A stretch of 40,812 bases of DNA from Candidatus Hydrogenedentota bacterium (GTDB lineage: Bacteria > Hydrogenedentota > Hydrogenedentia > Hydrogenedentales > JAJRTN01), in contig JAJRTN010000119.1 of assembly GCA_024278275.1 (NCBI GenBank), positions 1 through 40,812 on the forward strand, given 5' to 3'. Below, piece by piece: positions 39,101 to 40,812 of this stretch. Within the stretch, counting starts at the first letter, position 1, and each line of letters begins with the position of its first letter. The translations under genes and the position numbers were made by a program. The notes under the pieces are model-generated. The model worked only from the letters and a program-made list of their open reading frames with translations. It was not told the origin of the DNA and searched no databases.

Positions 39101-40528
39101 TCACCCCTGGTATTCGCGGCGCATGGTGGTGGCGGGAATCCCCATACCCTCGCGGTACTTGGTAACCGTGCGCCGGGCGATGTTGGTGCCCTGTGCCTTG
39201 AGGAGGTTGGCGATTTTCTGGTCACTCAGGGGTTTGCGTTTGTCTTCCCCTTCAATGATTTTCTTGATCTGCGCCTGAATACTTTTCGAGGATTGGTCCT
39301 CTCCCGAGTCGGTGTGAAGACCGGGGGAAAAGAAAAACTTCAGTTCAAAGAGGCCTTGGGGCGTCTGCATGTATTTCCCCCGTGTCGTGCGTGCCACGGT
39401 GGATTCATGCATGCCGATCATACTGGCTATGTCCTGTAGTTTCAGGGGACGGATGTATTCGATACCCCGAAGCAGAAACTCATGCTGCACGTCCACGATG
39501 GCCTGGGCCACCTTGAGGATCGTCTGTTGACGCTGGGTAATGTTTCGGGCGAGCCACCGGGCCGATTCGATCTTCTCCCGGATATACTCCCGTTCCTCCT
39601 TGGACATGTCGGCCTGGCGTGCCTGCTGGATGAAAGTCTCGTTGATTTCCAGGTGCGAGAGCGTTTCCGAAACCAGCCGTACCACGAACTTGTCGTCCAC
39701 CATGTCCACCACCAGCTCCGGCTGGATGTACTGGGGCGGGCCGCTGGAATAGGCCCGGCCCGGCCATGGGTCGAGGGTGGCCAGCAGGGCCTTCAGTTCC
39801 TCCACGCGCTCCGGCGTGATATTCATGGCCCGGGCGATCTTCGGGATCTGGCGCTGTTTAAGCGCTTCCAGGTGATCCCGTACCAGGATGCGCAGCTCGG
39901 GCTCATAGGGGTATTCGGCGTCAATCTGAAGAATCAAACACTCCACCACGTCGTGGGCGCCCACGCCGGTGGGTTCGCAACGCTGCAGGATGGCAAGGGC
40001 CTCCCAAACCTTCTGCTCCGGGACGCCCATTTCCAGCGCTATCTCGCGCTCGTCGCCGGTGAAATAGCCCCGCTCATCAATATCGCCGATGATGATCCGT
40101 TCCCCAATGGCATACAGCGTGTCATCCATCGTGGCAATGCGCACTTGCGTCATCAGTTTGGCCCGCAGCGAATCCTCCTGCGTGATGGAATCCTCGTAGT
40201 ATTGACGCCGGGCAAAGTTGTCGGGATTCTGACTGAGATCGCGCCCCTCACGGTGCCGGATGCCCCAGTTGTCGCGGAACATGTCCAGGTCGAAGGACTC
40301 GTCGAAAGCGGTATCCTCTTCCTTTGGGGAGTTGGCCTCCGGCTTGGGATCGGGCTCCTCCTTCTTTCGCTTCTGTTCAAGGAAAGGATTGGTTTCCATT
40401 TCCTGCTGAACATACTGCTCCAGTTCCATCCCGTTGAATTGCAGGATTTGAAGTGCCTGCTGCATCTTCTGGGTCAGAACCAACTGCTGGCTCTGGGTCT
40501 GAACCAGCCTATGTTCCATGTTCATCAT
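39101..40528 (-). CDS. rpoN: RNA polymerase sigma-54 factor
   Basis: This 475-residue sigma-54 has the Gln- and Leu-rich activator region I (LVQTQSQQLVLTQKMQQALQ, residues 8-27), a short acidic region II (about 50-85, KEEDTAFDESFDLD) and the core-binding domain (ILQRCEPTGVGAHDV; RIATMDDTLYAIGERIIIGD). The -12-binding HTH is LKLQDIASMIGMHESTVART. The -24-contacting RpoN box ARRTVTKYRE lies near residue 458. It directs polymerase to GG/GC promoters and needs activators like the protein at 2650-4014. ATG 40528 is the first of several nearby Met codons. Upstream lie overlapping sigma-70 and sigma-54 promoters. The gene is convergent with dut (36 nt between stops). Confidence 0.97.
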   Translation of the reverse strand: MMNMEHRLVQTQSQQLVLTQKMQQALQILQFNGMELEQYVQQEMETNPFLEQKRKKEEPDPKPEANSPKEEDTAFDESFDLDMFRDNWGIRHREGRDLSQNPDNFARRQYYEDSITQEDSLRAKLMTQVRIATMDDTLYAIGERIIIGDIDERGYFTGDEREIALEMGVPEQKVWEALAILQRCEPTGVGAHDVVECLILQIDAEYPYEPELRILVRDHLEALKQRQIPKIARAMNITPERVEELKALLATLDPWPGRAYSSGPPQYIQPELVVDMVDDKFVVRLVSETLSHLEINETFIQQARQADMSKEEREYIREKIESARWLARNITQRQQTILKVAQAIVDVQHEFLLRGIEYIRPLKLQDIASMIGMHESTVARTTRGKYMQTPQGLFELKFFFSPGLHTDSGEDQSSKSIQAQIKKIIEGEDKRKPLSDQKIANLLKAQGTNIARRTVTKYREGMGIPATTMRREYQG

Positions 40529-40614
40529 GGGTGAAACCGCACCTTGAAATCCATGTGATACCGCTGCCCGTGGATGGGCCGTTTACACCCCTTGGGCGGT
40601 TGGGGCAAGTCAAG

Positions 40615-40630
40615 AGCAAATCCCGTGCCA
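40615..40630 (-). promoter_or_regulatory. Full-consensus sigma-54 promoter upstream of rpoN
   Basis: On the minus strand this reads TGGCACG-GGAT-TTGCT, matching the sigma-54 consensus TGGCACG-N4-TTGCW at every defined base. The start point would be near 40603, about 75 nt before rpoN. It overlaps the -10 of the sigma-70 promoter by one base. Confidence 0.75.
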
Positions 40631-40658
40631 TTCTACCACCGAAGCGGGGAACTGTCAA
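40630..40658 (-). promoter_or_regulatory. Consensus sigma-70 promoter of rpoN
   Basis: On the minus strand this reads TTGACA, a 17-nt spacer and TAGAAT, with TGG before the -10. The start would be near 40623, leaving a leader of about 95 nt. Confidence 0.75.
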
Positions 40659-40730
40659 TTGAAAGCGCCGTTTTGGGCCTGCGTCACCAAAGTGAGTTTT
40701 TCGATTTTTCTTTTGTTTTTGGGCAGTAGC

Positions 40731-40750
40731 ATGTAGTATATATACTACAT
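40731..40750. promoter_or_regulatory. Perfect 20-bp palindrome in the divergent rpoN region
   Basis: ATGTAGTATATATACTACAT has perfect dyad symmetry and lies in an AT-rich island. It lies 32 bp before the start codon of the rightward gene and contains TATA-like -10 sequences, so it is a likely operator. It also lies about 130-140 bp upstream of the sigma-54 start point of rpoN, an activator-site distance. Confidence 0.65.
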
Positions 40751-40782
40751 GGTCGTTGATTACAACCACAGGAGGATTGAGT

Positions 40783-40812
40783 ATGACCCGGCTCCAACAA
40801 TTGGAAGCACAA
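40783..40812 (+). CDS. 5' end of a gene cut by the window edge
   Basis: ATG at 40783, 6 nt after AGGAGGA (40770-40776, a near-perfect SD), opens a frame MTRLQQLEAQ that runs off the window. Too short to identify. It is divergent from rpoN and probably controlled through the palindrome at 40731-40750. Confidence 0.6.
   Translation, partial: MTRLQQLEAQ

Follow-up and report, generated by a model that had tools for sequence, protein, structure and literature searches.

Could the gene of an alternative sigma factor be switched off by the very holoenzyme that its product forms? This question is raised by the upstream region of rpoN in a genome (G000, 5.35 Mb) of the uncultured phylum Candidatus Hydrogenedentota, where a sigma-70-type promoter and a sigma-54 site overlap. 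The window, that is, the whole stretch of 40,812 nucleotides analysed here, is an entire contig (C84) of that genome, and its features are listed in Table 1. The gene is identified as rpoN by the Pfam AID, CBD and DBD domains of its product, the TIGR02395 score (420.6 bits against a cut-off of 277) and the RpoN box (IARRTVTKYRE). A tRNA gene at the promoter site was ruled out, since ARAGORN finds none in the window.

Table 1. Features of the rpoN region in the window (position 1 is the first base of the window)
Feature	Position	Strand	Basis or remark
rpoN (sigma-54), 475 aa	39101..40528	minus	ATG at 40528; Pfam, NCBIfam, RpoN box
rpoN Shine-Dalgarno-like AGGTG	40540..40544	minus	mechanical Shine-Dalgarno match
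Predicted sigma-54 transcription start (+/- 2)	40604	minus	position alone: 12 nt past C of the -12 GC
Sigma-54 -24/-12 element TGGCACGGGATTTGCT	40615..40630	minus	12/12 match; register kept in relatives
Predicted sigma-70 transcription start (+/- 2)	40623	minus	position alone: 7 nt past the -10
rpoN extended -10, TGG-TAGAAT	40630..40638	minus	TAGAAT = 40635-40630, TGG directly before; spacer 17
rpoN sigma-70-type -35 hexamer TTGACA	40653..40658	minus	promoter scan; conserved across genera
TCAA directly before the -35 (TCAATTGACA)	40659..40662	minus	conserved across genera; many relatives have it within the -35 of a divergent, back-to-back promoter
End of multicopy ISKra4-like insertion element	40675..40812	plus	stops 16 bp short of the rpoN -35; contig ends before its interior

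The initial annotation had described TTGACA-17-TAGAAT overlapping a full-consensus sigma-54 site upstream of rpoN, and both the sequence and the coordinates proved exact. TTGACA, 16-18 nt and a TATAAT-like hexamer are expected of a sigma-70-type promoter; the rpoN promoter has a spacer of 17 and an extended -10, and the promoter scan scores it 11/12. The sigma-54 consensus TGGCAYR-N4-TTGCW is matched in full, and T40630 is common to both elements, being the final base of the -10 and the initial base of the sigma-54 element. The strict sigma-54 pattern TGGCACGNNNNTTGCW has a single exact match in the window, the rpoN site, and with no more than two mismatches it has 6 matches versus 7.0 expected by chance. 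Therefore, what distinguishes the rpoN site within the window is that its match is full. For the whole genome, the relaxed pattern TGGCAYRNNNNTTGCW gives 25 matches, compared with 1 for the reversed control. A sigma-54 motif inside the footprint of the sigma-70 holoenzyme is the criterion of classes I and II in E. coli (PMC4551910), and such a position is found here, with the -24 GG just past the -10. By rules of thumb from model bacteria, a distance of 19 nt separates the two predicted starts; consequently, the -10 and the start of the sigma-70 promoter would lie beneath a closed complex of sigma-54.

Then, is this arrangement shared by the relatives? In the sample of 68 genomes of the phylum, rpoN was found in 64 (none in G028, G040, G053 and G058), and its 5' end with some upstream sequence in 62 (G003 and G005 are without the 5' end). 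G051 was dropped for too little upstream sequence, leaving 61 rpoN upstreams. The best sigma-70-type promoter of each was picked blind to sigma-54, and 53 of the 61 scored at least 9. A sigma-54 match of at least 10/12 lies at offset +5 from the start of the -10 in 34 of these 53 upstreams (25 genera, 7 families), whereas the remaining 80 offsets combined hold two, and it should be noted that related genomes are not independent in these counts. When the definition is loosened so that an in-register composite needs no -35, it is present in 35/61 upstreams, which represent 26 genera and 8 of the 10 families with data. Conservation in relatives was a check that the initial annotation had proposed, and the composite is indeed kept in the same register. 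The column information, calculated for 36 genera with one row each, is 0.79-1.02 bits for GGCA and 0.77-1.01 for TTGC, compared with 0.09-0.54 for the N4 between them and at most 0.49 for the leader downstream of the element. High GGCA and TTGC with low N4 is how selection on a sigma-54 site should look, in contrast to a stretch conserved as a whole.

In its strict form, TAYAATGGCAYRNNNNTTGCW, the composite is also restricted to rpoN in the phylum sample: it occurs 24 times, once in each of 24 of the 68 genomes and always at rpoN, and the reversed control gives none. A broad scan with the pattern TTGACN{17,19}TANAATGGCAYNNNNNTTGCW, which covers a single register in 84,980 species, each represented by one genome, returned 30 matches, 21 of them upstream of rpoN as judged by tblastn. 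The contigs of these 21 are titled Hydrogenedentota, Hydrogenedentes or "uncultured bacterium", and no others occur. The nine matches elsewhere (L081, L082, L096, L099, L103, L104, L105, L106 and L107) were set aside. Three of them (L096, L103 and L107) look like members of a single repeat family, from MAGs with the label Deltaproteobacteria or Desulfobacteria and not at rpoN, in which a TTGACA-type promoter leads into TGGCATATAAATTGCA, another combination of a promoter with a sigma-54-like pattern. Among 46 relaxed sigma-54 sites of three genomes (G000, G004 and G014), an in-register -10-like hexamer is present at the three rpoN sites and at L060 only. L060, in G000, was considered as a second composite-like site for its in-register AATAAT, and was rejected because by eye it is without a -35. 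In G004 the relaxed pattern gives 13 matches versus 10 for the reversed control, so that motif matches in that genome are alone no proof of use.

From the overlap in the sequence, its fixed register in the phylum, its confinement to rpoN and the place where the predicted sigma-54 start falls with respect to the ribosome site, we infer sigma-54 binding, competition between the two holoenzymes and the sign of the feedback. The element is probably a compact autorepression switch of rpoN, with negative feedback exerted by the sigma-54 holoenzyme. The housekeeping holoenzyme would transcribe rpoN from the near-consensus sigma-70 promoter until accumulating sigma-54 allows its own holoenzyme to occupy the -24/-12 site, a site with its -24 half starting at the final base of the -10 and its -12 half immediately beyond the sigma-70 start. 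Staying there as a closed complex over the -10 and the start point, it would shut off rpoN, and sigma-54 would be held near a set level.

The initial annotation had left the sign of this feedback to circumstance, negative with a closed holoenzyme and positive with an activator. The two possibilities can be weighed by what a sigma-54 transcript would contain. The predicted sigma-54 start is only 4-13 nt before the ATG in 27 of the 35 composites. With Shine-Dalgarno calls made mechanically, as matches of 4-7 nt to AAGGAGGTGA, the best match lies upstream of the predicted sigma-54 start in 26/35, and would thus be missing from the transcript; it is kept downstream in 7/35 (G000, G001, G007, G024, G033, G039 and G066) and not found in 2/35. 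Sigma-54 transcripts of the 26 should therefore be poorly translated. When the same rule is applied to 43 sigma-54 sites outside rpoN in G000, G004 and G014, by contrast, an SD-bearing start is retained downstream, within 200 nt, at 35 and is not retained at 1, and 7 have none. This difference between rpoN and the other sites is the main reason for reading the element as an operator, and the loss of the Shine-Dalgarno site in most composites makes a second promoter less likely than a site for autorepression. Together with the fixed register and the restriction to rpoN, it lends support to the negative arm of the earlier proposal.

The chief alternative is a dual promoter with positive feedback, in which sigma-70 provides basal rpoN expression, to be raised on demand when the sigma-54 promoter is fired by an enhancer-binding protein. 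It would account for the consensus match of the window site, the approximately 21 activators encoded in the genome and the seven composites, that of the window included, whose sigma-54 transcript holds the Shine-Dalgarno site, and in a large survey of motifs, sigma-54 sites at rpoN are taken as a sign of autoregulation in several classes (PMC12316311, in the passages concerned). However, since most relatives' sigma-54 transcripts would lose that site, positive feedback is unlikely as the general function. In addition, the window has an insertion element that stops 16 bp short of the -35, so that an activator site originally present upstream would have been displaced. We consider this reading rather improbable. 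The window species is where it could apply, for its predicted sigma-54 leader is 76 nt long and the operator argument from Shine-Dalgarno loss does not hold there; as a minority reading, positive feedback is most credible in such long-leader species.

The putative ISKra4-like insertion element is multicopy. Four copies that were compared have 99-100% identity to the window over 138-139 bp and a common boundary. In a relative, a copy whose end is similar includes a DUF6788 ORF as well as an ORF for an ISKra4-type transposase, the latter scoring 168.7 bits, below the curated cut-off of 205. A 22-bp perfect palindrome, CATGTAGTATATATACTACATG, is located at 40730-40751, between the element end and its first ORF, and has 22 exact copies in G000, many within 90 bases of a contig end. 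The palindrome had been a candidate enhancer site, some 135 bp from the sigma-54 start on its upstream side, and was rejected as an rpoN regulator because it has these many copies and belongs to the end of an insertion element.

Could the sigma-54 element be a relic, once useful and now of little effect, with the sigma-70 promoter doing the work? The composite is absent from 26 of the 61 upstreams, including families f7, f9 and much of f10, and is therefore dispensable, which weighs against the autorepression switch as well. On a quick rpoN tree, in which the branches of G006, G090 and G092 were flagged as long, the trait changes at least 8 times, or 9 times if two neighbour rows are counted as lacking it, which indicates that the composite has been lost, or regained, repeatedly. 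This scattered absence, and the persistence of strong sigma-70 promoters without the sigma-54 element in many genomes, would suit a relaxed site. However, the conserved GGCA and TTGC around a variable N4 point to continuing selection wherever the element is kept, and a vestigial site appears quite improbable to us. In favour of the autorepression switch, the sigma-54 network itself is in use in the phylum, as judged from the gene content: G000 has 21 activators at E<=1e-30, and at least one activator is encoded in each of the 68 genomes, so it cannot be concluded from the absence of the composite that a genome makes no use of sigma-54. The median number of activators is 18 with the composite versus 10 without it; a link between the two was dropped, because family f5 genomes without the composite still have 12-21 activators.

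An operator of another protein, or an RNA element of the 5' leader that resembles a sigma-54 site, is very improbable: the sigma-54 identity is read solely from motif logic and genome context, but the -24/-12 match is full with a free N4 and a fixed spacing, and the site stands at the sigma-54 gene itself, an RpoN box being present in 55 of the 58 rpoN genes read.

The proposed autorepression switch has counterparts in known systems. As reported in the relevant passages of PMC4551910, sigma-54-dependent repression occurs in E. coli at genes with a sigma-54 motif that overlaps the footprint of sigma-70, and competition between sigma-54 and sigma-70 in vitro reduced initiation by 10-60%, a precedent that speaks for occlusion at rpoN. 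In argT, chaC, mdfA and patA, according to the same passages, the -24/-12 site lies within the footprint of the sigma-70 promoter, as in Hydrogenedentota, and competition in vitro has been shown for E. coli. Unlike these four, the Hydrogenedentota target is rpoN, the register is fixed to the base across the phylum and the strict composite is rpoN-restricted. The rpoN gene of R. leguminosarum is negatively autoregulated, as cited in a passage of PMC3538637; the Hydrogenedentota gene would likewise lower its own expression. The initial annotation had stated that rpoN is autorepressed through sigma-54-type sites in several proteobacteria; R. leguminosarum is one case of such negative autoregulation, and neither the site itself nor an overlap of the Hydrogenedentota form is given in the passages of PMC3538637 on that gene. 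Fully overlapping sigma-70 and sigma-54 promoters are described for glmY/glmZ of Salmonella Typhimurium in the part of PMC3844500 consulted. There, two holoenzymes compete for one stretch of DNA, as would be the case at the Hydrogenedentota rpoN; however, the glmY/glmZ sigma-54 promoter is productive, whereas most Hydrogenedentota sigma-54 transcripts would be without a ribosome site.

Sigma-54 motifs upstream of rpoN, like those found here, are the ground on which PMC12316311 infers rpoN autoregulation in several bacterial classes; its main text is without Hydrogenedentota, and its passages on these motifs do not describe their geometry with a sigma-70 promoter. A literature search for Hydrogenedentota with sigma-54 gave PMC10866078, a paper on Hydrogenedentota that names sigma54 in its reference list only, and the composite was not found described in the portions of the open-licence literature that were searched. 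A sigma-54 site over rpoN's own promoter is a known principle in a new, phylum-conserved variant. It provides a clear, testable case, maintained by selection across a phylum, in which the sigma-54 holoenzyme would act as a repressor and not as a polymerase dependent on activators, and a simple circuit by which an alternative sigma factor would be held at a set level without an extra protein. Schaefer et al. proposed that repression by sigma-54 is pervasive and perhaps its earliest function (PMC4551910), a proposal to which a conserved device outside Proteobacteria that is restricted to rpoN is directly relevant.

More tentatively, the sigma-54 site at the Hydrogenedentota rpoN could be a dedicated operator, with a complete RNA polymerase as its repressor. 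The closed holoenzyme might sense the pool of idle sigma-54 holoenzyme and set rpoN expression accordingly, and firing from the site would yield an RNA without a ribosome site. Activators elsewhere that draw off or fire the holoenzyme would release the gene, and sigma-54 would be replenished.

As for the history of the region, the neighbouring-lineage upstreams L209 and L210 have TCAATTGACA-17-TACAAT/TAGAAT without the sigma-54 element, which suggests that the sigma-70 promoter is probably older than the sigma-54 element. Neither the promoter nor the sigma-54 element is clear in the neighbouring-lineage copy L207, and L208 starts within 5 bases of a contig end, with no upstream sequence. The neighbouring-lineage genome G101 has two rpoN genes, L207 and L210, and the TCAATTGACA promoter is found at one of them only. 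In L023, a divergent gene of the metallo-beta-lactamase fold (MBL-fold hydrolase) takes the place of the insertion element, and rpoN and this divergent gene appear to use back-to-back sigma-70 promoters. The -35 hexamers of the two overlap in TCAATTGACA, an arrangement also seen in L209 and L210, and a back-to-back divergent promoter pattern sharing TCAATTGAC was found at 21/62 rpoN loci of the phylum. In the window, the divergent promoter side has been removed by the insertion element.
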